From NCBI RefSeq assembly GCF_007556605.1, contig NZ_VJND01000003.1, positions 1 to 64,000 on the forward strand: a stretch of DNA of 64,000 bases, written 5' to 3'. This document shows positions 3 to 13,746 of this stretch, piece after piece (position 1 is the first letter of the stretch; every line of letters begins with the position of its first letter). The notes under the pieces were generated by a model. That model was not told the DNA's origin. It made no database searches and saw only the letters and a program-made list of their open reading frames with translations. The position numbers and the translations under genes were made by a program. Origin of the DNA: Tepidimonas sediminis (GTDB lineage: Bacteria > Pseudomonadota > Gammaproteobacteria > Burkholderiales > Burkholderiaceae_C).

Positions 3-833
3 ACCTGGCAGGATAGAGAACTACGCAAGAACCGCGCGCTGCCGGTGACGCTGGAGCGCTACAAGGCCGCGCGCGAGCGCCTGATCCAGAGCCGCGCCAC
101 GCACCTCGATCAGCTCACCGACAAGCTGCGGGAGCCGCGCGTGCACGCCGTCATCAGCCGGATCCTGGCCGCCGACGACCGCGAGGCCGACGCCCTGCAC
201 GAGCAAGTGCCGCTCGATGACCTGCAATACGTCGAAGACCTGGGCCTGATCGAGTCGCGCCCCCAGTGGCGCATTGCCAACCGCATCTACCGCGAAGTCA
301 TCCCGCGCGAGCTCACCTACACCACGCAGACCCGCATCACCCACGAGCAGGCCTGGTACGTCCGCCCGAGCGACCGGCGGCTGGACATGGACAAGCTCCT
401 TGCTGCCTTCCAGCAGTTCTTCCGTGAGAACGCCGAGGCCTGGATCGAGCGCTTCCAGTACCGGGAAGCCGGCCCGCAGCTGCTGCTGCAGGCCTTCCTG
501 CAGAGGATCGTCAACGGAGGAGGCCGCATCAGCCGCGAGTACGGCCTCGGCCGTCGCCGAACCGACCTCTTTCTCGAGTGGCCGCTGGATGAAGCGCAAG
601 GCTTTCTCGGGCCGGTGCAGCGGGTCGTCCTCGAACTCAAGATCCTGCACAAGAGCCTGGAAGCGACGATCGAGGAAGGGCTCACCCAGACGGCGGCGTA
701 TGCCGACCAGTGCGGCGCGCAGGAAGCGCACCTGATCGTCTTCGACCGCCGGCCCGGACGCAGCTGGGAGGAGAAGATCTTCCACCGCCGCGAGACCTTC
801 GGCGGCCGTACGATTGGCGTGTGGGGGATGTGA
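3..833 (+). CDS. 3' part of AAA-type ATP-binding protein with PD-(D/E)XK nuclease-like tail (5' end outside window)
   Basis: The frame is open from base 3 without an initiator, so only about the last 276 residues are visible. The GTG at 45 is probably just an internal codon. The C-terminal half shows a PD-(D/E)XK-like core: an RTDLFL strand near bases 558-575 and an LELK strand near 630-641, followed by a QTAAYAD helix. This fits the tail of a bacterial family of stand-alone AAA-like ATPases with a restriction-endonuclease-fold C-terminus, whose cellular role is not established. The P-loop half would lie upstream of the window and cannot be checked. The gene ends 15 bp before the convergent maf gene and has no evident link to flagella. 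Confidence 0.72.
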   Translation, partial: TWQDRELRKNRALPVTLERYKAARERLIQSRATHLDQLTDKLREPRVHAVISRILAADDREADALHEQVPLDDLQYVEDLGLIESRPQWRIANRIYREVIPRELTYTTQTRITHEQAWYVRPSDRRLDMDKLLAAFQQFFRENAEAWIERFQYREAGPQLLLQAFLQRIVNGGGRISREYGLGRRRTDLFLEWPLDEAQGFLGPVQRVVLELKILHKSLEATIEEGLTQTAAYADQCGAQEAHLIVFDRRPGRSWEEKIFHRRETFGGRTIGVWGM

Positions 834-848
834 GCCGTTCCTTTCCTT

Positions 849-3404
849 TCAGGAACCGGGACGATCCGGAGTGGATCGCAGCATGTCGCGGATGGAACCA
901 GCCAGTGGCGCTCCGCCTGGGAGACGCTCCAGATGGGCAGCCATCAGGGAGGCAGCTTCATCAGACCCGGCGTTGACCATGAGGCGGCCCAAGCGCGCCA
1001 TGGCGTCGATATCCTGCGGGTGCTCGGTCAGATGGCGCTCATAAACGTCAATGGCTTGTGGGAGCCGACCCGTGGCGGCGAGAAAATCACCATACTGGGT
1101 GCGATAGCCCGGAAGCAGGTCAGCCAAGCACTGCAGGGCTTGACCCGCCATCTCCGTCTCACCGCGTTGCAGCGCCCAACTGGCCACGCGCACCAAAGCC
1201 ATTTTCCATAGACTGCGCTCCGCGGTCTGCAGAACCTGGTCGTAGTAAGCCAGCGCCTCGTCTGGACGATCCTCGAGCTCCGCAAGCAGCCCGCGCGCCA
1301 AGGCGATATAGGGCGTTGCCGTTTGCGTGTCGTGAACCCGTTCCAGTCCGGCCAGGGTGTTGCGCAGGCCCTCGGCATTGCGCTGCGCGAACAGCTGCTC
1401 CATCCGGACGAGTGCCGCACGCAGGTCGCCATGCGATCGGGCGCGGCGCAAGTGGACACCATCGGTGGCTTGCAGATCCTTCTGCAGCGCGCGCTGAAGT
1501 TCATCGAATGCCTCGTGGGCCTGGGCTGGCGCGTCCGAAGGCAGGGCACCGTGACGGCGCAGCCAGCCGAGTACCCGGCCGGGTTCGCCGTGCTGCATCC
1601 AGGTCTTCGCCAGCTCGGGTAGCGACAGATGGCCGCCGTACTCCCGCCGGCGCCGCCGTGCCTTGGCCAATCCTTGCTCGATCCAAGTGCGCAGCTGACG
1701 CGCCCCGTTCAGGTAGGCGTCGTAATAGCCCTGCAGTGCCTCCTGTACATCCTTTGCGTCGAGCGATTCGAGTTCGCGCACCGGTTTCATGCTGCGCAGC
1801 ATGCCGGCGCGTCCCAGCTGACTGATCAGCTTCGACAAATCGGGGTGTTGGCGGCTGATTTCCGCCTCCAAGCTTTCCAGCCGCAGGCGAAGGTTGCGGT
1901 TGCGGATCGTGCCGTCGTCAGTGAAAAGCTTGTCAGTGACCTTGCGCGCTTGGCGAAGCTGCTGCTCGAACTGCGTGAGTTCGGCGAGCCGGCGTTCGAA
2001 TTCGCGCGCGAGGCGCTCCGCATGGCGCACGCGCCGGTCATCGGGAAGAGGCTCCAGTGCCACGACCGGAGGGCGGGCGGTATGAGGGTCTTCATCCCAT
2101 TCGATGTTCTCGAGAGGCAGGTGCTCGACCGATTCGACCCGTGCCGCGCCCGGTGCCGGGTTGATGAGACGCAGGCCACGCTGACGCAAGTGTTGTGCCT
2201 GTTGCGCCAGCGTGTCGATGGCAGCCGCGAAGTCAGCCGTCGTACTGGCGCGGCGGCCGTCGTTCGTCTCCACCTCCAGGTTGGTCAGATCGAAGCGCGG
2301 TCCGGCCAGCCGTTCGTTGCTGCCTTGCGCATGGGTGTAGCCCTCCGGGGTGAAACACAGGTCGACCCCGGCCAGAATCAGTCGCTGCAGGCCCAGCTCG
2401 CCGGCGAACTGCAAGGCCGTGTTGGTAACGGTCGGTCCCACGCCGTGCAGGGGATCAGTTGGGTTCAGCGTCGACGGCCAAGGCAGCAGCGGTCCAAGGT
2501 AGTAGCTGCGATGCGGCCACTGGCTCAGCAGGCGCGGGTTGACATGGTACTGGTGGATGAAGATCACCCGGTCACTGAAACGCAGCATGTCGCGACTGAT
2601 CTCGTAGCTCATCTCGGTGGGATCGACCGAGAACACGAAATCCGGCTCCAACCCCACCTGCAGCAACCGACGGCTGATGCGCGAGACGGCCAGCACGACC
2701 AGCCGGTCGCGGTGCTGCCGCACCCACTCCAGGGCTGCATCCAATGACGGCCCGCCGGCCAGCAGCACCCCTGTGCGTCCCGGCATCCTGCCACGCCAGA
2801 AGCCGGCCGGTTCCACGTTGTCCGGTGCGTTGGTGAGCTGGCAGGCGATGAAGGCGCCGACCCCGTGCTGGGCCACCGTGCGCCAATGCAGGGAAGCCAC
2901 CGCCTCGCGCAACGTCCAGCCGAGCTGGGTGTAGTCCGGGGCCTCAGTGGACTGAGCGGCCAGCGAAAAGACCACTTCGACCCGGTCGATGAACAGATAA
3001 TCCGCCAGACGCAGATCGCCGGCCACTTCCAGCCAATCATCCGGCGTGGCGCAGCGGACATGGGCCGGCAAGTCCTCCAGCAGGCCGGCCTCCTTCAGGG
3101 CGGCATGCACCGCAGTCGGCTCCACGAACAGGTAGCGGGTGCCGGCCGGAGGCGGCTCGCGCAGCACGTGACGAATCAGATGGCCGGAGTCGCTGCCCGC
3201 GAAGACGTAAAGCGTGTCCTGGGCGCGCAGCTGGCCGCGGAAGGCCTGCTCCAGCGTCAGCGTGACCCCCAGTCTGTCGAAGGTCGTGGGGTTGACCGCC
3301 TCCAGCGTGCGCTCCCCGAGAGCGTTGACCCGCCACTGCAGCCTGGGTTGCTTCTCGAGACCGGTGTCCGCGATGGGGTCATCTGGCTGGGGGGATGGGA
3401 TCAT
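849..3404 (-). CDS. maf: Motility-associated glycosyltransferase, DUF115/Maf family, with C-terminal TPR region
   Basis: The 851-residue protein carries a DUF115 (MptE-like Rossmann) core in roughly residues 60-460, including the glycine motif GGPSLD near residue 217 and the stretch GVDLCF. Known Maf proteins of this family attach pseudaminic or legionaminic acid to flagellin Ser/Thr before export. The region after about residue 480 is rich in Arg, Gln and Leu (likely coiled coil). Residues ~690-830 look like tetratricopeptide repeats (ALARGLLAELEDRPDEALAY, then PQAIDVYERHL). The start ATG at 3404 puts the core at the expected distance; an in-frame ATG at 3443 is an alternative. It is divergent from the legionaminic acid operon, which supports a role as nonulosonate transferase. 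It is unrelated to the Maf septum-formation nucleotidase. Confidence 0.85.
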   Translation of the reverse strand: MIPSPQPDDPIADTGLEKQPRLQWRVNALGERTLEAVNPTTFDRLGVTLTLEQAFRGQLRAQDTLYVFAGSDSGHLIRHVLREPPPAGTRYLFVEPTAVHAALKEAGLLEDLPAHVRCATPDDWLEVAGDLRLADYLFIDRVEVVFSLAAQSTEAPDYTQLGWTLREAVASLHWRTVAQHGVGAFIACQLTNAPDNVEPAGFWRGRMPGRTGVLLAGGPSLDAALEWVRQHRDRLVVLAVSRISRRLLQVGLEPDFVFSVDPTEMSYEISRDMLRFSDRVIFIHQYHVNPRLLSQWPHRSYYLGPLLPWPSTLNPTDPLHGVGPTVTNTALQFAGELGLQRLILAGVDLCFTPEGYTHAQGSNERLAGPRFDLTNLEVETNDGRRASTTADFAAAIDTLAQQAQHLRQRGLRLINPAPGAARVESVEHLPLENIEWDEDPHTARPPVVALEPLPDDRRVRHAERLAREFERRLAELTQFEQQLRQARKVTDKLFTDDGTIRNRNLRLRLESLEAEISRQHPDLSKLISQLGRAGMLRSMKPVRELESLDAKDVQEALQGYYDAYLNGARQLRTWIEQGLAKARRRRREYGGHLSLPELAKTWMQHGEPGRVLGWLRRHGALPSDAPAQAHEAFDELQRALQKDLQATDGVHLRRARSHGDLRAALVRMEQLFAQRNAEGLRNTLAGLERVHDTQTATPYIALARGLLAELEDRPDEALAYYDQVLQTAERSLWKMALVRVASWALQRGETEMAGQALQCLADLLPGYRTQYGDFLAATGRLPQAIDVYERHLTEHPQDIDAMARLGRLMVNAGSDEAASLMAAHLERLPGGAPLAGSIRDMLRSTPDRPGS

Positions 3405-3482: not shown

Positions 3483-4496
3483 ATGAACCCACGACCGAAC
3501 GATGAGCCGTCTCTGTTGGGGATGTGCCTGGTGACCGGAGCCGATGGCTTCATTGGCTCGCACCTCGTGGAGCTGCTGGTGGCACGGGGCTGTCGGGTAC
3601 GGGCGCTGGCCCAGTACAACAGCTTCAACCACTGGGGGTGGCTGGAGAGCCTGACGTGCCTGCCGCAGGTGGAAGTGGTGAGTGGAGACATCCGTGACCC
3701 CCATTTCTGTCACCGGATGATGGAAGGGGTGGACGTGGTGTTCCACCTCGCCGCGTTGATTGCCATCCCTTACTCGTACGTGGCTCCCGACAGCTACGTC
3801 GAGACCAACGTGCGCGGCACGCTCAACGTCTGCCAAGCGGCGCGGGCCGTCGGCGTGCGCCGCCTCGTCCACACTTCCACCAGCGAGGTGTACGGTACTG
3901 CGCGCTACGTGCCGATCGACGAGGCGCACCCGCTGCAGCCGCAGTCGCCGTACAGCGCCTCCAAGGTCGGTGCGGATGCGATCGCGCTGAGCTTCCACAG
4001 CAGCTTCGGCCTGCCGGTGACGGTCGCACGGCCGTTCAACACCTATGGGCCACGGCAGTCCGCGCGTGCGGTCATTCCGACCGTCATCAGCCAGGTGGCC
4101 GCCGGCTGCCGTGTCCTCAAGCTCGGCGACCTGCGCCCGACGCGCGATTTCAACTACGTGGAGGACACCTGCCGCGGGCTGCTGGCGTTGGCCCAGTGCG
4201 ATGCGGCGGTTGGTGAAGTGGTCAACATCGGTTCCAACTACGAGATTTCCATTGGCGATACGGTCAGGCTCATCCTGGAGCTGATGGGCGCTGAGGTCGA
4301 GGTGCAGCAGGAAGATGAACGCCTGCGCCCGCCGCAGTCGGAAGTGTTTCGCCTGTGGTGCGACAACCGCAAGATCGAGCGGTTGACCGGGTTCCGTCCA
4401 CGTGTCGATCTGCGCGAGGGGTTGCAACGCACGATCGCATGGTTCACCGATCCGGTCAACCTGCAGCGTTACAAGCCCCACCAATACAATGTTTGA
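3483..4496 (+). CDS. legB: NAD-dependent sugar-nucleotide 4,6-dehydratase LegB
   Basis: This extended short-chain dehydrogenase (337 residues) has the NAD-binding TGADGFIG at residues 18-25, TSTSEVYG, and the catalytic YxxxK as YSASK near residue 157. The family member LegB removes water from NDP-GlcNAc to give the 4-keto-6-deoxy sugar, the first committed step to legionaminic acid. The assignment rests on the six downstream genes, which complete that pathway. The annotated ATG has no clear Shine-Dalgarno sequence. A second ATG at 3522, just after GGGG, would start only a few residues before the Rossmann motif and is a real alternative. The 3' end overlaps legC by 8 nt. Confidence 0.9.
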   Translation: MNPRPNDEPSLLGMCLVTGADGFIGSHLVELLVARGCRVRALAQYNSFNHWGWLESLTCLPQVEVVSGDIRDPHFCHRMMEGVDVVFHLAALIAIPYSYVAPDSYVETNVRGTLNVCQAARAVGVRRLVHTSTSEVYGTARYVPIDEAHPLQPQSPYSASKVGADAIALSFHSSFGLPVTVARPFNTYGPRQSARAVIPTVISQVAAGCRVLKLGDLRPTRDFNYVEDTCRGLLALAQCDAAVGEVVNIGSNYEISIGDTVRLILELMGAEVEVQQEDERLRPPQSEVFRLWCDNRKIERLTGFRPRVDLREGLQRTIAWFTDPVNLQRYKPHQYNV

Positions 4497-5649
4497 CGTC
4501 GAGGGCTTCATCCGCTTTGTGCGCGGGCTGTACGGCCAGCCTGAGGGTGTCATCCCCCTGCACGCCCCGGTCATGGGGGCTCTCGAGAAGGCCCGGGTGG
4601 CCGAGGCCATTGACTCGACGTACGTGTCCAGCGTCGGCGCCTTCGTGAACCGGTTCGAGGAGGCGGTGGCCGCCTTCGTCGGGGTGCGTCATGCCGTGGC
4701 CACCGTCAACGGCACTGCCGCGCTGCACGTGGCGCTCCGGGTCGCGGGCGTCCAGCCCGGCGACTTGGTGGTGACCCAGGCGCTCACGTTCGTCGCCACC
4801 GCCAACGCCATCACCTACTGCGGGGCCGCGCCGGTGTTCGTTGACGTGGAGGAAGAGACCCTCGGCATGGATCCGCGGGCGTTGGAGGCGTGGCTGCGAC
4901 AGCACGCCACCGTCCGGCAGGGCGTGTGCGTGGAGCGCGGCAGCGGCCGGCCCGTGCGCGCCTGCGTGCCGATGCACACGCTCGGCCACCCCGCGCGCAT
5001 CGAGGCCATTGCCGAGGTCTGCGCTGAATGGGGGCTGGTGCTGGTGGAAGACGCGGCCGAGGCGATAGGAAGCCTGCGCCAAGGCCGCCATGCCGGGACC
5101 TTCGGCCGGCTGGGGGTGTTCAGCTTCAACGGCAACAAGGTCATCACGACCGGCGGCGGAGGCGTGATCGTCACCGACGACGAGGCCTTGGCGCGGCGGG
5201 CCCGGCACCTGACCACCACCGCCAAGCGGCCGCATGCCTGGGCCTTCGAGCATGACGAGGTGGGTTACAACTACCGCCTGCCGAACCTGAACGCCGCCTT
5301 CGGCGTGGCGCAGATGGAGCGCCTGACGGCGTTGCTGGCCAGCAAGCGGGAGGTGGCCGGCGCCTACGCACGGGCGGCGCAGCGTGACGGTTGGCACTTC
5401 GTGCACGAACCGGCGGGTGCGCGCAGCAATTACTGGCTCAATGCGCTGCGGCTGCCCGACGTGGCCGCGCGGGATGTCTTCCTGCGAGCCACCAACGCGG
5501 CCGGCGTGATGACGCGTCCGCTGTGGACGCCGATGCACCGCCTGCCGATGTACGCTGATTGCCGCCGCGACGCCCTGGAGGTGACCGAGCGGCTGGCCGG
5601 TACCGTGGTCAACGTGCCGAGCTCGCCCCTGCCTGGGCGAGGGGGATGA
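4489..5649 (+). CDS. legC: PLP-dependent sugar aminotransferase LegC (DegT/DnrJ/EryC1 family)
   Basis: LegC (386 residues) transfers an amino group to C4 of the keto-sugar made by LegB. The DegT/DnrJ/EryC1 fold is clear: NGTAALHVAL near the PLP phosphate site, EDAAEAIGS, and the PLP-binding lysine in FSFNGNKVITTGGGG. The start ATG at 4489 lies inside the last codons of legB (ATGTTTGA overlap), so translation is probably coupled. The same frame runs upstream to 4402, but that part duplicates legB coding sequence and is rejected. The stop is 4 nt before legG. Confidence 0.9.
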   Translation: MFDVEGFIRFVRGLYGQPEGVIPLHAPVMGALEKARVAEAIDSTYVSSVGAFVNRFEEAVAAFVGVRHAVATVNGTAALHVALRVAGVQPGDLVVTQALTFVATANAITYCGAAPVFVDVEEETLGMDPRALEAWLRQHATVRQGVCVERGSGRPVRACVPMHTLGHPARIEAIAEVCAEWGLVLVEDAAEAIGSLRQGRHAGTFGRLGVFSFNGNKVITTGGGGVIVTDDEALARRARHLTTTAKRPHAWAFEHDEVGYNYRLPNLNAAFGVAQMERLTALLASKREVAGAYARAAQRDGWHFVHEPAGARSNYWLNALRLPDVAARDVFLRATNAAGVMTRPLWTPMHRLPMYADCRRDALEVTERLAGTVVNVPSSPLPGRGG

Positions 5650-5653
5650 ACCC

Positions 5654-6829
5654 GTGGTGCGCCGTATCGCCGTCGTCACCGGCACGCGGGCGGACTACGG
5701 TCTGCTCTATTGGCTCATCCGGGAACTGCACGAGGCGCCGGACTTCGATCTCCAACTGCTGGTCACCGGCATGCACCTCATGCCGCGCTTTGGACGCACG
5801 GTGGAGATGATCGAGCGCGACGGCTTTCCCATCGCGGCTTCGGTCGATCTGGGGCTGGAGGACGACACGGCACTTGCGGTGGCGCGCGCGATCGGGACCG
5901 GGACGGCGGGCTTCGCCGATGCGTTGGCCCGCTTGCACCCGGAGCTGGTCGTCATCCTTGGCGATCGCTTCGAGGCTTTGGCGGCGGCCTGCGCCGCGTT
6001 TACCCTGCGCATGCCGATTGCGCACATTCATGGAGGAGAGGTCACCGAGGGCGCACTGGATGACGGCTACCGGCATGCCATCACCAAGCTGGCAGCGCTG
6101 CACTTCACCGCCGCGGAGCCGTATCGCCGCAGGGTCATCCAGATGGGTGAACCGCCGGAGCGCGTCCACACTGTCGGCGCGCCCGGGCTGGAGCATTGGG
6201 TACGAACCCCGTTGCTGTCGCGCAGCGAACTGGAGCGCGTGCTCGATTTCGAACTCGGTGAGCCGACGTTGCTCGTGACCTTCCACCCGGCGACGCTGGA
6301 CGAGGGCAGTCCCGCTGACCAGTGCCGCGAGCTGCTGGCCGCGCTGGATGCGTTCGGTCAGGCGCGCGTCGTCTTCACGCTGCCGAATGTCGATCCGGGC
6401 GGGGCGGCCATCATCCCGCTGCTGGAGGACTATGTGGCTCGTCATCCGCAGCGTACTCGTCTGTTCGCCTCGCTCGGCCAGCAGCGCTACCTGTCGCTGC
6501 TGCAGCATGTGCAGGCCGTGGTTGGCAACTCCTCCAGCGGCATCATCGAGGCACCCAGCGCCGGTTGTGCGACCGTGAACATCGGCGACCGCCAGCGCGG
6601 CCGGCTGCGTGCGGCCAGCGTGATCGACTGTGCCCCCCGCCGCGCCGACATCGAGGCGGCGATCCGGCGGGCTCTCGATCCGGTCTTCCGCGCGACGCTG
6701 CGCGAGGTGCGCAACCCCTATGGCGACGGGTGCGTCGCGGCGCGCATCCTGCGGGTCTTGCGCGAGGTCGATCCGCGAGCCCTGCTGCGCAAGCCCTTTC
6801 ATGACCTGCCGGGAGTGGCCGATGGGTGA
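5654..6829 (+). CDS. legG: NDP-sugar hydrolysing 2-epimerase LegG (NeuC-like)
   Basis: The 391-residue protein is a NeuC/WecB-type epimerase: TGTRADYGLL at the N-terminus, HIHGGEVTEGALDD near residue 123, and VVGNSSSGIIEAP near residue 288. LegG releases the nucleotide and inverts C2 to give 2,4-diacetamido-2,4,6-trideoxymannose, the substrate of LegI. A hydrolysing NeuC-type rather than a simple WecB-type enzyme is inferred from the TRADYG motif and from the neighbouring synthase. The start is GTG, 4 nt after the legC stop, with GGGGG upstream as a possible ribosome site. It overlaps legI by 8 nt. Confidence 0.9.
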   Translation: MVRRIAVVTGTRADYGLLYWLIRELHEAPDFDLQLLVTGMHLMPRFGRTVEMIERDGFPIAASVDLGLEDDTALAVARAIGTGTAGFADALARLHPELVVILGDRFEALAAACAAFTLRMPIAHIHGGEVTEGALDDGYRHAITKLAALHFTAAEPYRRRVIQMGEPPERVHTVGAPGLEHWVRTPLLSRSELERVLDFELGEPTLLVTFHPATLDEGSPADQCRELLAALDAFGQARVVFTLPNVDPGGAAIIPLLEDYVARHPQRTRLFASLGQQRYLSLLQHVQAVVGNSSSGIIEAPSAGCATVNIGDRQRGRLRAASVIDCAPRRADIEAAIRRALDPVFRATLREVRNPYGDGCVAARILRVLREVDPRALLRKPFHDLPGVADG

Positions 6830-7919
6830 AGCGATTACCCCAGAGCCGGTGTTGGTGATCGCCGAGGCCGGCGTCAATCACAACGGTCGTCCCGACTGGG
6901 CGTTTCAGCTCATCGAGGTGGCCGCGCAGGCCGGGGCAGACGTGGTCAAGTTCCAGACCTTCCGGGCCGACTGCCTGGTGACCGCCGATGCGCCGAAGGC
7001 CGCCTATCAGCAGCGCGCCACCGGGGCAGGGGAGTCCCAGCTGGCCATGCTGCGCCGACTGGAGCTGCCGGCGGCGCTGCACCGGGAGCTGAAGAAGCAT
7101 GCCGAGCAGCGCGGGCTGCGGTTTTTGTCCACCGCCTTCGACGAGCCGAGCCTGCGCCTGCTGGTCGACGAGCTTGGCCTCACGCTGCTCAAGATCCCGT
7201 CCGGCGAATTGACCAACGCGCCGTTTCTGCTGCAACATGCGCGCAGCGGTGCCGAGCTGATCGTTTCCACCGGTATGGCGACGCTGGCGGATGTCGAGCA
7301 GGCGCTGGGGGTGATCGCCTTCGGGCGCATCGCCGGGGCGCAGGAACGGCCGGGGCCGGCCGCATTCCGGGCCGCCTACGCGTCGCCCGAAGGGCAGGCG
7401 GCGCTGCGCCACGGGGTAACCCTGCTGCATTGCACCAGCGATTACCCGGCCGTGGCCGAGGCTGTGAACCTGCGCGCGATGGACGCCATGGCGGCCGCGT
7501 TCGGTCTGCCGGTTGGATACTCGGACCATACGCTCGGCATCGAGGTGGCGCTGGCCGCCGTCGCCCGTGGCGCCCGTGTGCTCGAGAAGCATTTCACGCT
7601 GGATCGCACGCTGCCGGGGCCGGACCATGCGGCGTCTCTGGAGCCGCCGGAACTGGCGCGTCTGGTGGCCGGCGTGCGCACGGTCTCGGCAGCGCTGGGG
7701 GATGGCATCAAGCGGCCGCAGCCCGCCGAGCCGGCCACCGCGGCGGTGGCGCGCAAGAGTCTCGTGGCCCGGCGGGCGATCCGCGCCGGGCAGGTGCTCG
7801 GTGCGGAGGACGTCGCGGTGATGCGGCCCGGCACCGGCATGTCGCCAATGGCGTACTGGGACGTGATTGGGCGGGCGGCCTCGCGTGACTACGCCGCCGG
7901 AGATCTGCTGGATGAGTGA
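6822..7919 (+). CDS. legI: N,N'-diacetyllegionaminate synthase LegI (NeuB family)
   Basis: LegI condenses the 2,4-diacetamido-trideoxymannose with phosphoenolpyruvate to form legionaminic acid. The NeuB TIM-barrel domain (about residues 8-285) shows IAEAGVNHNG, KFQTF, LKIPSGELTN, STGMA, HCTSDYP and GYSDHT. The antifreeze-like SAF domain follows at about residues 300-362, with RRAIRAGQVLG and MRPGTGM. The length of 365 residues is normal. ATG at 6822 overlaps the legG stop as ATGGGTGA. NeuB and PseI relatives exist; the combination with LegB, LegC and ptmE favours the legionaminate enzyme. Confidence 0.92.
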   Translation: MGEAITPEPVLVIAEAGVNHNGRPDWAFQLIEVAAQAGADVVKFQTFRADCLVTADAPKAAYQQRATGAGESQLAMLRRLELPAALHRELKKHAEQRGLRFLSTAFDEPSLRLLVDELGLTLLKIPSGELTNAPFLLQHARSGAELIVSTGMATLADVEQALGVIAFGRIAGAQERPGPAAFRAAYASPEGQAALRHGVTLLHCTSDYPAVAEAVNLRAMDAMAAAFGLPVGYSDHTLGIEVALAAVARGARVLEKHFTLDRTLPGPDHAASLEPPELARLVAGVRTVSAALGDGIKRPQPAEPATAAVARKSLVARRAIRAGQVLGAEDVAVMRPGTGMSPMAYWDVIGRAASRDYAAGDLLDE

Positions 7920-8559
7920 CCCGTTCGTCATCCTCGGTGGAGGTGGCCACGCGCGGGTCGTGTTGGACGTGTTGCGCAGCCTCGGTCGACCCGTTCTCGG
8001 GGTGTTGATGCCCGAACGGCCCGCCGGCGCCGACTGGTACGGCCTGCCGGTGCTCGGCGATGATGCCTGGCTGGAGCAGCCGCAGGCGCACGCGTGCCTG
8101 TTTGCGATCGGCGTGGGCATGGTCCCCGGTCGCCGGTTGCGCCGGCAGGCGGTTCTCGAGCGGCTCAGGGCGCTGGGGTTGCGGGTGCCGGCGCTGGTGC
8201 ATCCGGCGGCGGTGGTGTCCCAGGCCGCCGGGATGGCCGGGGCGGTGCAGGTCATGGCGGGCGCGATCGTGCAGCCGGGGGTGCGGCTGGGCGCCGGGGT
8301 GCTGCTCAACACCGGCGCGCGGGTGGATCATGATTGCGCGATCGGCGAGGGCGCGCACATCGCTCCTGGCGCGATCCTTTGCGGGGATGTGCGCGTCGGC
8401 CCACGGGCCTTCGTCGGCGCCGGGGCGGTGGTGCTGCCCGGCGTGACCGTTGGCGAAGGCGCCGAGGTGGCTGCGGGGGCCGTCGTGCGGCGGGACGTGC
8501 CGCCGCGATGTCGCTACATTCCGGGGCAGCCGCTCAAGGCGGTGGAGGACGAGGCATGA
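7912..8559 (+). CDS. legH: Sugar-nucleotide N-acetyltransferase LegH (NeuD/PglD-like, left-handed beta-helix)
   Basis: The 215-residue protein has an N-terminal PglD/NeuD Rossmann-like part (VILGGGGHARVVLDVL) and a C-terminal hexapeptide-repeat beta-helix from about residue 90 to 200. The likely acceptor-base histidine region is RVDHDCAIGEGAHIAPGA. In the legionaminate route this enzyme acetylates the C4 amino group produced by LegC. Apart from ptmE, which is part nucleotidyltransferase, it is the only acyltransferase-type gene in the operon, so it fills the one remaining step. It starts inside legI (ATGAGTGA) and overlaps ptmE by ATGA. Confidence 0.88.
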   Translation: MSDPFVILGGGGHARVVLDVLRSLGRPVLGVLMPERPAGADWYGLPVLGDDAWLEQPQAHACLFAIGVGMVPGRRLRRQAVLERLRALGLRVPALVHPAAVVSQAAGMAGAVQVMAGAIVQPGVRLGAGVLLNTGARVDHDCAIGEGAHIAPGAILCGDVRVGPRAFVGAGAVVLPGVTVGEGAEVAAGAVVRRDVPPRCRYIPGQPLKAVEDEA

Positions 8560-9617
8560 TCAGCGACTGGCAAGACCTGCTGTTGCGACGCGACGACACC
8601 ATCCGGCGCGCCATCGAGGTGATCGACCGTGGCGCCAAGCGCATCGCGCTGGTGGTGGACGAGGCCGGGCGGCTGCTCGGTACCGTCACCGACGGCGACG
8701 TGCGCCGCGGCATCCTGCGCCACCTGGGCCTGGATGCGCCTGTGGCGGAAGTGATGAACCCGCAGCCGCGTGTGCTGCGGCCTGGCTATGGCCGCGAGGA
8801 GGCTTTGCGACTGCTGGGCAGCGCGCAGGTGCTGCAGGTGCCGATCGTGGGCGAGGGCGGCGTGTTGGTCGGCCTGGAAACCCTGACCGACCTGCTCAAG
8901 CGCCCGCGGCTGGAAAACCCGGTGTTCCTGATGGCCGGAGGGTTCGGGACGCGCCTGCGGCCGCTGACCGACGACTGTCCCAAGCCGATGCTGCCTGTGG
9001 GCGGGCGGCCGATGCTGGAGCACATCCTGCAGGATCTGGTCGACTACGGCTTCTACCGCTTCTACATTTCCGTTCATTACCTGCGCGAGAAGGTCATCCA
9101 GCACTTCCAGGACGGCAGCCGCTGGGGCGTGACGATTCAGTACGTGCACGAGGATACGCCGCTCGGCACGGCGGGGGCGCTGGGCCTGCTGCCCAAGGAG
9201 GCGGTGCAGCGACCGCTGATCGTCGTCAACGGCGACATCATGACGCGCGTCAACTACGAGGCTCTGCTGCAGGACCACGACCGCCACACCCCTGCGGCCA
9301 CCGTGTGTACGCGTCAGTACGACTTTCAGGTGCCGTACGGCGTGATCGAGCACGACGAGCAACGGATCACCGACATCATCGAAAAGCCGGTCCATCATTT
9401 TTTCGTCAGCGCTGGCATCTACGTGCTGGCGCCGCAGGTGGTGCACGCGGTGGAGCCGAACGTCCGTCTGGACATGCCCGATCTGCTGAAGCGCCAGATC
9501 AAGTCTGGCCGCGAGGTGCGCATGTTTCCGGTGCACGAATACTGGCTGGACATCGGCCGCGTGGGCGACTTCGAGCTGGCGCAGCGCGACGCGCCGCGGG
9601 TGATCGACCATGGCTGA
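8556..9617 (+). CDS. ptmE: CBS-domain nucleotidyltransferase PtmE, GDP-GlcNAc forming (predicted)
   Basis: Residues ~1-120 form a pair of CBS motifs (IALVVDEAGRLLGTVTDGDVRRGIL and VLQVPIVGEGGVLVGL in outline). From about residue 125 there is a sugar-phosphate nucleotidyltransferase domain with signature AGGFGTRLRPLTDD and the lysine in CPKPML. This two-domain layout is that of PtmE, described in Campylobacter as making GDP-glucosamine-type donors for legionaminic acid. Its presence argues that LegB and LegG here use GDP- rather than UDP-linked sugars. The length of 353 residues is as expected. The exact sugar substrate is inference. Confidence 0.85.
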   Translation: MISDWQDLLLRRDDTIRRAIEVIDRGAKRIALVVDEAGRLLGTVTDGDVRRGILRHLGLDAPVAEVMNPQPRVLRPGYGREEALRLLGSAQVLQVPIVGEGGVLVGLETLTDLLKRPRLENPVFLMAGGFGTRLRPLTDDCPKPMLPVGGRPMLEHILQDLVDYGFYRFYISVHYLREKVIQHFQDGSRWGVTIQYVHEDTPLGTAGALGLLPKEAVQRPLIVVNGDIMTRVNYEALLQDHDRHTPAATVCTRQYDFQVPYGVIEHDEQRITDIIEKPVHHFFVSAGIYVLAPQVVHAVEPNVRLDMPDLLKRQIKSGREVRMFPVHEYWLDIGRVGDFELAQRDAPRVIDHG

Positions 9618-10320
9618 CGAGGCTGAAGGAACGGTGCTGGCCCTGATCCCCGCGCGCGGGGGCAGCAAGGGCGTGCCGGGCAAGAACGTCCGGGAGGTGG
9701 CCGGGAAGCCGCTGATCGCCTGGACCATCGAGGCGGCCCGTCAAGCGACCTGCATTGACCGCATCGTCGTGTCATCGGACGATGCGGTGATCCTTGATGT
9801 CGCGCGCGCCTGGGGGGCCGAGACGCCGTTCGTGCGGCCGGCGGAACTCGCGCGCGACGAGACGCCAGGCACCGACGTGGTGCTGCACGCGCTGCAGCAG
9901 TTGCCCGGCGTGGCTTGGGTGGTGCTGCTGCAGCCGACGTCCCCGCTGCGCACGGCGCAGGACATCGATGCGGCCTATGCCCTCTGCCAAGAGAAGGACG
10001 CACCGGCCTGCGTCAGCGTGACCGAGGTCGCGACGCCTCCGTGGTGGATGTTCCGCCTTTCCGACGAAGGACGGCTGCGCTCGTTTCTCCCCGAGAGCGA
10101 GCGTCCACAGCGGCGGCAGGAGGCTCCGCCACTTTACGCGCTCAATGGGGCAGTTTATGTTGCCCGCGCCGACTGGCTGCGGCGCACGCGGTCTTTTCTG
10201 ACGGATGAAACGCTGGCCTACGTGATGCCGGCCGAGCGTTCCATTGACATCGACACGCCGCTGGATCTGACGACCGCGGCGTGCCTGTTGCGCGAGCGGT
10301 TGCCGCACGGCGGCGCATGA
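9610..10320 (+). CDS. legF: CMP-legionaminic acid synthetase LegF (acylneuraminate cytidylyltransferase family)
   Basis: The protein (236 residues) has the CMP-sialate synthetase start IPARGGSKGVPGKN, then LLQPTSPLR and the metal-binding SIDIDTPLDL near the end. It activates legionaminic acid with CTP, producing the donor used by the glycosyltransferase. ATG at 9610 lies within the ptmE stop region (ATGGCTGA). It is the last gene of the operon. Its stop codon sits in the loop of a GC-rich hairpin (10308-10331) and faces the convergent flagellin gene 24 bp away. PseF and NeuA are close relatives; context decides the name. Confidence 0.9.
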   Translation: MADEAEGTVLALIPARGGSKGVPGKNVREVAGKPLIAWTIEAARQATCIDRIVVSSDDAVILDVARAWGAETPFVRPAELARDETPGTDVVLHALQQLPGVAWVVLLQPTSPLRTAQDIDAAYALCQEKDAPACVSVTEVATPPWWMFRLSDEGRLRSFLPESERPQRRQEAPPLYALNGAVYVARADWLRRTRSFLTDETLAYVMPAERSIDIDTPLDLTTAACLLRERLPHGGA

Positions 10321-10344: not shown

Positions 10345-11202
10345 TCAACCCTGCAGCAGCCGCAGCACGTTCTGCGGCAGCTGATTGGCCTGGGCGATCA
10401 TGGCGGTGCCGGCCTGCTGCAGGATCTGCGTGCGGCTGAGGTTGGCGGTCTCGGCGGCGAAGTCGGCATCCATGATGCGGCCGCGGGCGGCCTGCTGCTT
10501 CTCGATGCCGACGCGCAGGTTGGTCATGATGTTCTCGAAGCGGCTCATGTAGGCGCCGAGCTCGGCGCGGCGGGCGACAATCTTTTGGATTGCGCCGTCC
10601 AGCGCGACAAGGAGCAGCGAGGCACTCGTTGCATCGGCGGTGGAGGCGATCGAGAAGCCCGCGCTCATGACGGACTGCAGGAAAGAGGTTTGCGAAAGCG
10701 CGGTCAGACCCGTGATGGAGACAGTTTGCCCTCCGCGCGCACCGACCTGAAAGACGTAGTTCGAGCTGAAAGTCGAAGTGTCGTCATACAGGACTGCACG
10801 GCCGTTGAAGCTGGTGTGGCGCGCGATACGGTCGAGCTCGTTTCGAAGTTGGACGAATTCTTGATTGATGTTGGCCCGCTCGGCGGTCCCGTTCGTCCCA
10901 TTGGCGGCGCGCAGAGCCAGATCGCGCATGCGCTGCAGCACGTCGGTCACGGTGGACAGGGCACCATCGATGACCTCGACCATCGACAGCGCATCGGCGG
11001 TGTTCTGCAGCGCCACGGTCATCCCGCGTGCCTGGCTGTTCATGCGCTCGGCGATGCCCAAGCCCGCGGCATCGTCCTTGGCGGTGTTCACACGCAGGCC
11101 CGACGACAGGCGCGCCATCGTCGTCTGCAGCGACTGCATGTTGTTGATGGTGTTGCGCTGGGCATTCAGCGACATCACGTTGGTGTTGATGGTCAAGGCC
11201 AT
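10345..11202 (-). CDS. fliC: Flagellin (short, D0/D1-type), copy 1
   Basis: This 285-residue flagellin has the classical N-terminal coiled coil (MALTINTNVMSLNAQRN, LSSGLRVN, DDAAGLGIAERM) and the C-terminal helix (NLSRTQILQQAGTAMIAQAN). The centre, about residues 125-215, is short and rich in Ser, Thr and Ala, so D2/D3 domains are essentially missing and glycosylation sites would lie there. AGGAG sits 7 nt before the ATG. Both ends are nearly identical at DNA level to the flagellin at 12913-13746; the middle is not. It lies downstream of fliD on the same strand, behind a terminator, so it probably needs its own promoter. The legionaminate operon converges on its 3' end. Confidence 0.95.
   Translation of the reverse strand: MALTINTNVMSLNAQRNTINNMQSLQTTMARLSSGLRVNTAKDDAAGLGIAERMNSQARGMTVALQNTADALSMVEVIDGALSTVTDVLQRMRDLALRAANGTNGTAERANINQEFVQLRNELDRIARHTSFNGRAVLYDDTSTFSSNYVFQVGARGGQTVSITGLTALSQTSFLQSVMSAGFSIASTADATSASLLLVALDGAIQKIVARRAELGAYMSRFENIMTNLRVGIEKQQAARGRIMDADFAAETANLSRTQILQQAGTAMIAQANQLPQNVLRLLQG
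10363..10560. repeat. Flagellin 3'-end repeat, copy 1
   Basis: This 198-bp block is repeated with only a few substitutions at 12928-13125 (constant offset 2565). It encodes the conserved C-terminal D1/D0 helices of the two flagellins. Near identity at DNA level, silent positions included, suggests recent duplication or gene conversion rather than only protein-level constraint. Confidence 0.9.
10903..11202. repeat. Flagellin 5'-end repeat, copy 1
   Basis: About 300 bp coding for the flagellin N-terminus recur at 13447-13746 (offset 2544) with scattered substitutions. Similarity falls away abruptly in the central part of the genes, between the two repeat blocks. Confidence 0.88.
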
Positions 11203-11352: not shown

Positions 11353-12762
11353 TCAGCGCTTGGGCGCGTTCCAGCCGGCCAGCTGCTGGTTGATGAAGTT
11401 GCTCAGCCCACTGTAGCCCGCCATCTTGGTGTCGAGCATCGTGTACTGCGCCCGCAGTGCCGCCTCGGTGCGCTGGACACGCTGCTCGATGCGCTCGATC
11501 TCCTGGTTCTTGCGCTTGATCGTGTCCTGCAGGCTGCGCTCGCGCGAGGCGGCCGCGCCGCTGGCCGCCAGCGCGTCGCGCGCGAAGTTGCGGATGCGTT
11601 CACCGATGCCGCCGTTGCCGAACAGGCCGGCCAAGCCCTGCGGGCTGGCCAGCGCGGCCTCCAGCCGGGTACCGTCGATCGCCAGCTGCCCGTTGCGGTC
11701 AAACATCAGCCCGGCTTCGTTCAGGGTCGAGGGCGTGTTGCCGCTGACCGCATCCGTCGCATAGCGGCGCAGCATCGTCAGGATGCCGATCGCGGCGGAA
11801 TCGCCGCGCAAGGGACCGTTGCCCAAGCCGGTGGGGTCGCTGCGTGTCAAGTCCCGGATCGTCTTGCTCAGCTCGTTGAAGGCACTGCGGAAATCCTCGA
11901 CCGCCTTGCGCATGCCCTCGGCGTCGGACGCCACCGTCAGCGTGACCGGCTGGCTGGTGACGGCCTTGGCCGTGAAGGTGATGCCGGACAGCACGTTCTC
12001 GAACGTGTTGGTGGGCGACGTCACGGTGATCCCTTCCACCGTCACCTGGGCATCCGCGGCCGACTGCACCAGCGTCTGACCGACCGCCACGCCACCATCC
12101 TCGAAGAAAGCCAAACGGCCGATTCCGGTGGTGGTGTTGTAGACGAGATTATCCGCGCCGTCGAAGGCGACGACAGAGAAGCCATTCACCTGCCCGGTGT
12201 CCGTACCGCGCAGCACCAACCGCTCCTCGCCGCCGCTGCGCACCACCACGGCCCGCACACCGGCATCGGCCGCGTTGATCTTGCCGGCGATCGTCGTCAA
12301 GGTGTCCGTCGCGGCGATCGAGATGCTGACGGAACTGCCGCTGCCGGGGGTGAAGAGTCCGCCGTTCCACTGCCCGAGCTGGATCTCGAGCCTTCCGGTC
12401 TCGCCGACGGCTTCGCCCACCCCGAACGCCGAGGTGCGCGTGCTCTGCGCCTGCGCCAGCGCCTGGACCTGCACGGCGAACTGACCGGTAACGGCCCCTG
12501 CCTGGGCGGAGACCGCCACGGCATCCGGCTGGCTGGCCTCGGCGCGCAGGGCCTCCCACGTGGAGGTGGCAGCCAGCTTGCCGGCGGCGTCCTGCAGCTT
12601 GGCCAGGCCAGCCTTGATCTGGGCCCAGGCCGAGATGCTGGACTGCAGCGAGCCGATCTGCGACTGGATGTTGGCGATCGGCTTGCGTTCCAGCGCCACC
12701 AGTTGCGAGACGATGCCGTTGACGTCGAGGCCGCTGCCGACCCCGGGTGATGAGATGGCCAT
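11353..12762 (-). CDS. fliD: Flagellar filament cap protein FliD (HAP2)
   Basis: FliD caps the growing filament and helps flagellin subunits fold. The 469-residue protein has the typical start SSPGVGSGLDVNGIVSQLVALE (FliD_N, about residues 5-105). The FliD_C region follows (about 225-450), with LNEAGLMFDRNGQLAIDGTRLEAAL and a terminal coiled coil ending LSNFINQQLAGWN. GAGGAG stands 6 nt before the ATG. It sits between two flagellin genes; flaG and fliS, its frequent partners, are not present here. A terminator follows immediately. No good sigma-28 site was found directly upstream, so it may be read from the fliC2 promoter or its own. Confidence 0.93.
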   Translation of the reverse strand: MAISSPGVGSGLDVNGIVSQLVALERKPIANIQSQIGSLQSSISAWAQIKAGLAKLQDAAGKLAATSTWEALRAEASQPDAVAVSAQAGAVTGQFAVQVQALAQAQSTRTSAFGVGEAVGETGRLEIQLGQWNGGLFTPGSGSSVSISIAATDTLTTIAGKINAADAGVRAVVVRSGGEERLVLRGTDTGQVNGFSVVAFDGADNLVYNTTTGIGRLAFFEDGGVAVGQTLVQSAADAQVTVEGITVTSPTNTFENVLSGITFTAKAVTSQPVTLTVASDAEGMRKAVEDFRSAFNELSKTIRDLTRSDPTGLGNGPLRGDSAAIGILTMLRRYATDAVSGNTPSTLNEAGLMFDRNGQLAIDGTRLEAALASPQGLAGLFGNGGIGERIRNFARDALAASGAAASRERSLQDTIKRKNQEIERIEQRVQRTEAALRAQYTMLDTKMAGYSGLSNFINQQLAGWNAPKR

Positions 12763-12912: not shown

Positions 12913-13746
12913 TTATCGCAGCAGCGCCAGCACGTTCTGCGGCAGCTGGTTGGCTTGGGCGATCATGGCGGTGCCGGCCTGCTGCAGGATCTGCGTGCGG
13001 CTGAGGTTGGCGGTCTCGGCGGCGAAGTCGGCGTCCATGATGCGGCCGCGGGCGGCGGTCTGCTTCTCGATGCCGACGCGCAGGTTGGTCATGATGTTTT
13101 CGAAACGGCTCATGTAAGCGCCGAGCTGTGCACGACGCTGAACGATGCCTTGAATTGCGGTATCCAGTTGGGTGATGACAGATTCGAAGGCAGAGGCGCC
13201 CGACAGCGATCCGATCGTAAGCGAGCCCAAGCCGGAAAGGCCGGCGGTGGAAGTTAGGGCTTGAAATTGGATGCTCAAAACCTGTCCCCCGTTGGCGCCA
13301 ATTTGAAACACGAAGGTATTTGCGTCGGATCCCAAGATGCGCAGGCGGTTGAATTCGGTTTGCGTGCCAATGCGGCCAATTTCGGCAGCCAACTGGGTAA
13401 ACTCTTCGTTGATGTTGGCGCGCTCTTGCGCCCCGTTGGTGCCGTTGGCGGCCCGCAGCGCCAGATCGCGCATGCGCTGCAGCACGTCGGTCACGGTGGA
13501 CAGGGCACCGTCGGCGACCTCCACCATCGACAGCGCATCGGCGGTGTTCTGCAGTGCCACGGTCATGCCGCGCGCCTGGCTGTTCATGCGCTCGGCGATG
13601 CCAAGACCAGCGGCGTCATCCCGGGCGGTGTTGACGCGCAGGCCCGACGACAGGCGCGCCATCGTGGTCTGCAGCGACTGCATGTTGTTGACGGTGTTGC
13701 GCTGGGCGTTCAGCGAGATGACATTGGTGTTGATGGTCAAGGCCAT
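12913..13746 (-). CDS. fliC: Flagellin (short, D0/D1-type), copy 2
   Basis: This second flagellin (277 residues) begins MALTINTNVISLNAQRN and ends with the same C-terminal helix as copy 1. Over roughly the first 105 residues the two differ at only about six positions, whereas the centre (about residues 115-200) is unrelated and more AT-rich. The ATG at 13746 is chosen because AAGGAG lies 8 nt upstream; an in-frame GTG at 13755 would be too close to that site. A good sigma-28 promoter stands 92 bp upstream, so this is probably the main filament gene. It heads the block fliC2-fliD-fliC1. Confidence 0.95.
   Translation of the reverse strand: MALTINTNVISLNAQRNTVNNMQSLQTTMARLSSGLRVNTARDDAAGLGIAERMNSQARGMTVALQNTADALSMVEVADGALSTVTDVLQRMRDLALRAANGTNGAQERANINEEFTQLAAEIGRIGTQTEFNRLRILGSDANTFVFQIGANGGQVLSIQFQALTSTAGLSGLGSLTIGSLSGASAFESVITQLDTAIQGIVQRRAQLGAYMSRFENIMTNLRVGIEKQTAARGRIMDADFAAETANLSRTQILQQAGTAMIAQANQLPQNVLALLR
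12928..13125. repeat. Flagellin 3'-end repeat, copy 2
   Basis: This is the partner of 10363-10560: 198 bp, same orientation, few substitutions. It codes for the flagellin C-terminus. Confidence 0.9.
13447..13746. repeat. Flagellin 5'-end repeat, copy 2
   Basis: This is the partner of 10903-11202, about 300 bp, coding for the flagellin N-terminus. Confidence 0.88.

Follow-up and report, generated by a model that had tools for sequence, protein, structure and literature searches.

Legionaminic acid on flagellin, transferases of the motility accessory factor (Maf) type, and variable flagellin glycosylation islands have all been described already, and they are the background to the locus analyzed here, a probable legionaminate (leg) glycosylation island beside the flagellin genes of the hot-spring bacterium Tepidimonas sediminis; legionaminate is a bacterial sugar related to sialic acid. 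The DNA examined, referred to as the window, covers the first 64 kb of contig NZ_VJND01000003.1 (250 kb; genome size, 2.53 Mb), and its start coincides with the contig end, right beside the maf locus. The flagellins of Plesiomonas shigelloides carry legionaminate, as determined by mass spectrometry, and a legF mutant is devoid of flagella (PMC4481668). As in the window, the cluster of strain 302-73 comprises LegB, LegC, LegG, LegI, LegH, LegF, and PtmE and adjoins flagellar genes; it also includes PtmA, PtmF, and a GlmU-like acetyltransferase, which the window operon lacks. Furthermore, the Plesiomonas Maf-5 is described as a protein of 349 amino acids without classical Maf domains, whereas the Maf of the window has 851 amino acids and a tetratricopeptide repeat (TPR) region. 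A TPR domain fused to a flagellin transferase is also found in Caulobacter FlmG, where it binds flagellins (PMC7591256). However, FlmG has an N-terminal TPR domain, a GT-B type domain, and pseudaminate as substrate, whereas the window protein combines a Maf core with a C-terminal TPR region.

Variable islands at the flagellin locus, such as that of Tepidimonas, are likewise known from Geobacillus and Enterobacteriaceae (PMC5109656, PMC4875605). The Geobacillus island is present in half of 36 strains and shows signs of horizontal transfer; according to its authors, there is no pattern relating flagellin length to the island, whereas length and island coincide in eight Tepidimonas genomes. Short glycosylated flagellins without D2-D3 have been described in Shewanella (PMC3120886). 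Our literature search, which left most subscription papers out of reach, retrieved no paper linking Tepidimonas with legionaminic acid, and the papers found with Tepidimonas and flagellin concern tumor or skin microbiomes, judging by their titles. Within the same reach, no paper was found on a Maf glycosyltransferase with tetratricopeptide repeats and flagellin, and the term "TPR domain" occurred in the related literature only in the FlmG paper; a Maf-TPR fusion may already be known elsewhere. New here are the Maf with a C-terminal TPR region, the difference in the filament locus within one genus, and the raised synonymous divergence of leg, maf, and fliD.

Results

The leg operon and its predicted product

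Seven genes on the + strand at positions 3483 to 10320 form one tightly packed operon in the order legB-legC-legG-legI-legH-ptmE-legF. Neighboring genes overlap by 4 or 8 bases, with the sole exception of legC and legG, which are separated by a 4-base gap; no sigma-70 type promoter was found in the segment searched between maf and legB. An initial sequence-only reading of this DNA had proposed seven co-directional Leg-type genes, and all are present with the strand and positions given; the assignments are upheld by family models, domains, and solved relatives. We applied the curated NCBIfam cut-offs to the operon proteins and examined 25 of the 38 families with matches. All five homologues of the cytidine monophosphate (CMP)-legionaminate pathway LegB, LegC, LegH, LegG, and LegI exceeded them: (i) the nucleotide-sugar 4,6-dehydratase LegB (3483..4496) scored 507.8 bits with TIGR04180 (cut-off, 475); (ii) the pyridoxal phosphate-dependent aminotransferase LegC (4489..5649), which matches perosamine synthetase 3bn1 (4.8e-70), scored 529 bits with TIGR04181 (cut-off, 420); (iii) the hydrolysing 2-epimerase LegG (5654..6829, GTG start) scored 460.4 bits with TIGR03568 (cut-off, 235.9); (iv) the predicted legionaminate synthase LegI (6822..7919), a NeuB family member with a SAF domain (PF03102 and PF08666), scored 455.5 bits with TIGR03569 (cut-off, 399.65); and (v) the NeuD/PglD-type N-acetyltransferase LegH (7912..8559; solved relative 4m98, 2.5e-33) scored 192.1 bits with TIGR03570 (cut-off, 160.8). 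The models matched by LegG, LegI, and LegH are common to the neuraminate family.

The best NCBIfam model for LegF (9610..10320; PF02348), the putative CMP-legionaminate synthetase, was PseF, with 171.3 bits below its cut-off of 205.7; among solved structures, NeuA-type CMP-nonulosonate synthetases come closest to LegF (6ifd, 1.7e-35; 1eyr, 6.2e-35). PtmE (8556..9617) exceeded no cut-off among the 25 families, and its name is therefore based on its architecture of CBS and nucleotidyltransferase domains (PF00571 and PF00483) and on the published gene order; by analogy with the published PtmE, it is likely a glucosamine-1-phosphate guanylyltransferase.

The closest solved structure to LegG is 5zlr, a hydrolysing GDP/UDP-diNAc-bacillosamine 2-epimerase (4.7e-106), with the UDP-N-acetylglucosamine epimerase GNE far behind (1.2e-48). 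The pseudaminate models remained below their cut-offs (PseB, 57 of 408 bits; PseC, 238 of 424 bits; PseI on LegI, 238 of 340 bits). A PF03102 search identified LegI as the single NeuB family synthase of the genome, and LegI, when aligned with a pseudaminate synthase, diverges from it at the stretch GPDHAASLEP, which we count toward a non-pseudaminate identity. The family results for LegG and LegI, the single PF03102 gene, and the presence of LegB and LegC therefore favor legionaminate and point to legionaminic acid, rather than pseudaminic or neuraminic acid, as the predicted product, in support of the initial assignment.

The same reading had called the operon complete, sufficient for CMP-legionaminate synthesis, and self-contained, which is too strong. 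The Campylobacter jejuni-type pathway requires a precursor linked to guanosine diphosphate (GDP), and its GDP-sugar segment is joined to the CMP-legionaminate segment by the N-acetyltransferase GlmU (PMC4481668). Since PtmE is the only member of the GDP-sugar (GDP-N-acetylglucosamine) branch encoded in the operon, "complete" is an overstatement; GlmS, GlmM, and GlmU would have to be housekeeping genes outside the operon.

The Maf transferase and its TPR region

Divergent from the operon lies maf (849..3404, - strand), a predicted flagellin nonulosonate transferase gene. Its product matches PF01973 at residues 189 to 352 with 125 bits, which confirms the divergent DUF115/Maf gene proposed initially, and it matches in sequence the solved Maf 5mu5 of Magnetospirillum magneticum (2.6e-10). 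The AlphaFold model (mean predicted local distance difference test score, 84.3; predicted template modeling score, 0.74) aligns to 5mu5 over residues 22 to 584 (Z, 23.4; root mean square deviation, 10.4; 486 residues). The core thus matches a solved Maf in both sequence and predicted fold, and the domain, the sequence match, and the fold bear out the reading of a Maf beside flagellins. The 5mu5 chain has 666 residues, whereas in the window protein the match stops at residue 584 of the model, beyond which lies a TPR-like stretch of ~190 residues. This region (~656 to 851) aligns to TPR chains, MamA and the TPR domain of OGT among them (Z, ~11 to 13), and TPR_14 was detected at residues 768 to 808, barely above its cut-off (24.4 versus 23.5 bits).

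In an alignment of 10 Maf-TPR proteins (window, two Tepidimonas loci, and seven gammaproteobacterial loci), TPR_19 and TPR_14 were each found in 8 (E up to 0.01); the misses, which were not named individually, are likely the two rows clipped by the end of their own locus. BLAST alignments to three other Burkholderiales Mafs (G055, G177, and G318; frames of 689 to 711 amino acids) covered the Maf core only, and the C-terminal part had no good match within those three frames. G055 has a weak match to this part (2.5e-5) outside and downstream of its Maf frame, perhaps a separate TPR gene. The TPR region of the window Maf probably helps to hold flagellin.

A short gene segment at 45-833 (+ strand), between the contig end and maf, is the C-terminal part of a multicopy gene family without Pfam match. 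Six matches to it were found in the window genome, five in G002, and four in G008, some of them at contig starts, and such repeats may be the reason why the contig ends next to maf. The other part of this gene may be a P-loop-like frame that opens contig C34, ahead of fliS.

The filament locus within Tepidimonas

On the other side of the operon, three genes on the - strand encode flagellin 1 (10345..11202; 285 amino acids; PF00669 and PF00700), the filament cap protein FliD (11353..12762; PF02465 and PF07195), and flagellin 2 (12913..13746; 277 amino acids; PF00669 and PF00700). The two convergent flagellins noted earlier are thus present, but fliD sits between them. The center of flagellin 1 comprises 61 residues, 20 of which are Ser or Thr, and its predicted model consists of long helices with only a small middle part.

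We compared eleven genomes of the genus, including that of the window (G000). LegB matches above the cut-off were found in 7 of 60 relatives, six among the genus genomes and one (G012) outside the genus, and LegB, NeuB family, and PF01973 matches coincide in the same six of the eleven. This comparative search, suggested by the initial reading as a check, thus located the block in six genomes and showed it to be absent from some congeners. One gene order is common to the six, although it is split over two contigs in G007, and fliS and fliT come after maf in G004, G005, G007, and G010. The island genomes encode flagellins of 272 to 285 amino acids (11 complete genes and one more that is truncated where its contig ends), whereas G006 and G009 have long flagellins (4 genes; 485 to 503 amino acids), located directly between g13926 and fliS, and neither leg nor maf. 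The association between short flagellins and the island holds in the eight genus genomes with assembled flagellins. As expected of a flagellin island, the locus adjoins flagellin and flagellar genes and occurs in some species only. With respect to the remaining genomes, G003 (a 73% complete metagenome-assembled genome [MAG]) has a C-terminal Maf fragment adjoining fliS, so that the absence of leg and maf is an assembly matter there; G002 has neither Leg nor Maf matches, and one of its contigs ends within the first part of a flagellin of the long type; and G001 was not assignable to either filament type.

G008, with the island, and G009, without it, are nearest relatives (rpoB, 99.5% identical; FastTree support, 0.844), and the g13926 tree agrees (90% identical; support, 1.0). 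Despite this close kinship, their FliD proteins are only 36% identical. A caution is that the fliS-fliG genes of G008 are located elsewhere, next to urease genes, and its maf, next to a methyltransferase gene, lies close to where a contig begins; what the two genomes have in common at this site is thus confined to its g13926 side. The product of this methyltransferase-domain gene (L139:833-1447) might modify either the sugar or flagellin.

Other features of these loci were also recorded. In G006, the segment L135:4361-7652, between g13926 and the long flagellins, encodes a methyltransferase-like protein, a GT8-like protein (below cut-off), and a 680-amino-acid TPR protein, possibly another flagellin modification set at the same locus. 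The TPR protein (L135:5610-7652) may be FlmG-like, but its last 300 residues matched neither a Pfam family (E up to 1) nor a convincing solved chain. In G009, both long flagellin genes (C4:60233 and 63465) have equal Flagellin_N scores (164.7 bits each), and the two flagellins of G006 are 96% identical; such near-duplicate copies could hinder assembly.

Synonymous divergence and base composition

G000 was paired with three relatives (G005, G007, and G010), and synonymous differences were expressed as a proportion for each gene. The baseline consisted of 28 to 31 open reading frames (ORFs) of the window from 13.9 kb on and includes some doubtful frames with amino acid identities of ~50% and low synonymous difference; G008 and G009, with one baseline ORF each, were left out. 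Compared to G005 (baseline maximum, 0.48), values were 0.51 to 0.60 for the leg genes, 0.63 for maf, 0.61 for fliD, and 0.51 and 0.60 for the flagellins. Compared to G007 (maximum, 0.51), they were 0.54 to 0.66 for leg, 0.63 for maf, and 0.57 for fliD, with the flagellins (0.46 and 0.47) inside the baseline. In two of the three comparisons, the leg genes, maf, and fliD therefore all lie above every baseline ORF. Compared to G010 (median, 0.32; maximum, 0.48), the leg values were ordinary (0.22 to 0.33), which argues against an intrinsic codon effect for these genes; maf (0.59) and fliD (0.53) were above all baseline ORFs, and the flagellins (0.44 and 0.45) were above 90% of them. Two comparisons also placed fliS, which is outside the island, above the entire baseline, so that the divergent zone extends past maf; fliF and g13926 were not elevated in this way.

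These data suggest that divergent alleles have been exchanged between lineages and that leg has not always moved together with the filament genes; the alternative is faster evolution in place. For G000 and G010, we weighed whether the operon had been transferred recently, as leg is less divergent there than maf, fliD, and the flagellins (0.44 to 0.59), but did not adopt this reading, as leg equals the flanking baseline. The rpoB signals conflict for G000, G004, and G010, and we claim no direction of transfer. The G+C content is 69.1% for leg, 66.1% for maf, 65.7% for the flagellin block, and 72.4% for the remaining window. No mobility gene or transposase was recognized in the island, for which no systematic search was made, and among plasmid records, matches to the leg operon stayed below 80% of it and those to the window Maf did not exceed a fifth of the protein. 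The initial suggestion of a portable island thus agrees with its presence or absence among congeners and with a synonymous divergence unlike that of its neighbors, but no recognized mobility gene or plasmid record carrying it supports that part of the proposal.

Occurrence beyond the genus

Among 80 named loci retrieved by LegI, the window Maf was matched over at least 35% of its length in nine, two from Tepidimonas and seven from gammaproteobacteria (four Chromatiales MAGs [L043, L044, L046, and L049], two other Gammaproteobacteria [L048 and L066], and Thalassotalea [L097]). Flagellins are close by in all nine and all are short, and in the seven other gammaproteobacterial loci the TPR-Maf, Leg genes, and flagellins occur together. 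The order legB-C-G-I-H-ptmE-F without Maf was found in Tropicibacter (L041), Thioclava (L045), and Dechloromonas (L042). Counter-cases include L068, with Leg genes and an 828-amino-acid flagellin, and three Butyrivibrio loci, with LegI-type genes and frames of 490 to 527 amino acids.

In the order as a whole, 7 of 399 genomes, including that of the window, contained a Maf above the cut-off. Flagellin length was surveyed in 50 genomes (6 with Maf above the cut-off and 44 without any match), with frames of <350 amino acids and matches of >100 bits taken as short flagellins. A general rule pairing Maf with short flagellins was rejected: at least eight Maf-less genomes have only short flagellins (G068, G082, G083, G085, G087, G093, G096, and G104), many others have long ones, and the Maf-bearing G318 encodes two long flagellins (open frames of 741 and 720 amino acids) 6 to 16 kb from its Maf. 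The pattern is therefore confined to Tepidimonas and the seven LegI-retrieved loci. The genes near the G318 Maf match Leg proteins at only 29 to 39% and are taken as putative pseudaminate genes.

Outside these groups, G012 carries, beside a short flagellin (L144:13534-15953), two stretches with 27% matches to the G006 TPR protein, and its contig C15 (L143 and L146) contains three NeuB family synthases in ~26 kb, one with a Leg set in a different order. On a plasmid of the hot-spring isolate Azospirillum thermophilum (L261), legB-legC-neuC-acetyltransferase-nucleotidyltransferase genes lie together with further sugar genes, close to an IS21 element.

Discussion

We consider it highly probable that the locus is a legionaminic acid flagellin glycosylation island in which the Maf-TPR protein attaches the sugar. 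From gene identity, operon packing, domain structure, and the comparative pattern, we infer the following route. PtmE would probably supply a GDP-glucosamine precursor; LegB, LegC, and LegH would convert an acetylated nucleotide sugar into a 2,4-diacetamido sugar; LegG would remove the nucleotide and invert C2; LegI would add phosphoenolpyruvate; and LegF would form CMP-legionaminate. The Maf-TPR protein may then transfer legionaminate to Ser/Thr residues of the short exposed center of both flagellins, in the cytoplasm before export, with the C-terminal TPR region probably assisting in holding flagellin.

Several observations weigh against this interpretation. Neither PtmE nor LegF exceeds a curated model of its own name, the substrate of Maf is assumed from gene order, and the TPR fold matches are at a level that the tool rates as common for helical repeats. 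In the wider order, Maf is found with long flagellins and short flagellins are found without Maf; G012, in which Leg genes and short flagellins occur without a PF01973 match, may therefore modify its flagellins another way. Finally, family models are blind to legionaminate epimers and N-acyl variants. It is this last point that gives room to a product such as 8- or 4-epi-legionaminate or, in G008, where a methyltransferase domain adjoins maf, to a methylated sugar; we regard an epimer or derivative as unlikely, since the operon has no extra epimerase gene and LegB and LegC exceed the legionaminate-pathway cut-offs.

Less probable still is that the legionaminate-type sugar serves also, or only, lipopolysaccharide or capsule, with Maf as a bystander or using another sugar. 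Leg genes do occur away from flagellins, as in G012, where the two are on separate contigs, and on plasmids alongside other sugar genes, but in Tepidimonas no genome without maf has leg, and maf adjoins leg in all six complete island genomes, barring the assembly break in G007. A pseudaminic or neuraminic acid pathway is highly improbable: PseF is the best model for LegF, though below its cut-off, but PseB and PseC score far under theirs, and the LegI and LegG family results, together with the presence of LegB and LegC, oppose it.

Beyond legionaminate glycosylation by Maf-TPR at this locus, we tentatively raise a wider possibility, which we hold to be rather doubtful. Tepidimonas and some gammaproteobacteria may share a distinct class of legionaminate transferases, in which a Maf core carries a C-terminal TPR region that recruits flagellin in an FlmG-like manner and which travels with the leg operon and with flagellins made of D0/D1 plus a short glycosylated center; the whole filament type (flagellins, cap, sugar pathway, and transferase) would then be swapped between species against long, island-less flagellins.

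The island itself is of an ordinary, well-supported kind, its transferase is unusual, and the pattern within the genus is instructive. Flagellin choice in cytoplasmic O-glycosylation has been called poorly understood (PMC7591256), and the Maf-TPR fusion, if confirmed, would help to address how Maf enzymes select flagellins. Close relatives with short, probably sugar-coated flagellins and with long flagellins without the island would form a natural comparison, permitting a direct test of whether surface glycans can replace the outer protein domains of flagellin.

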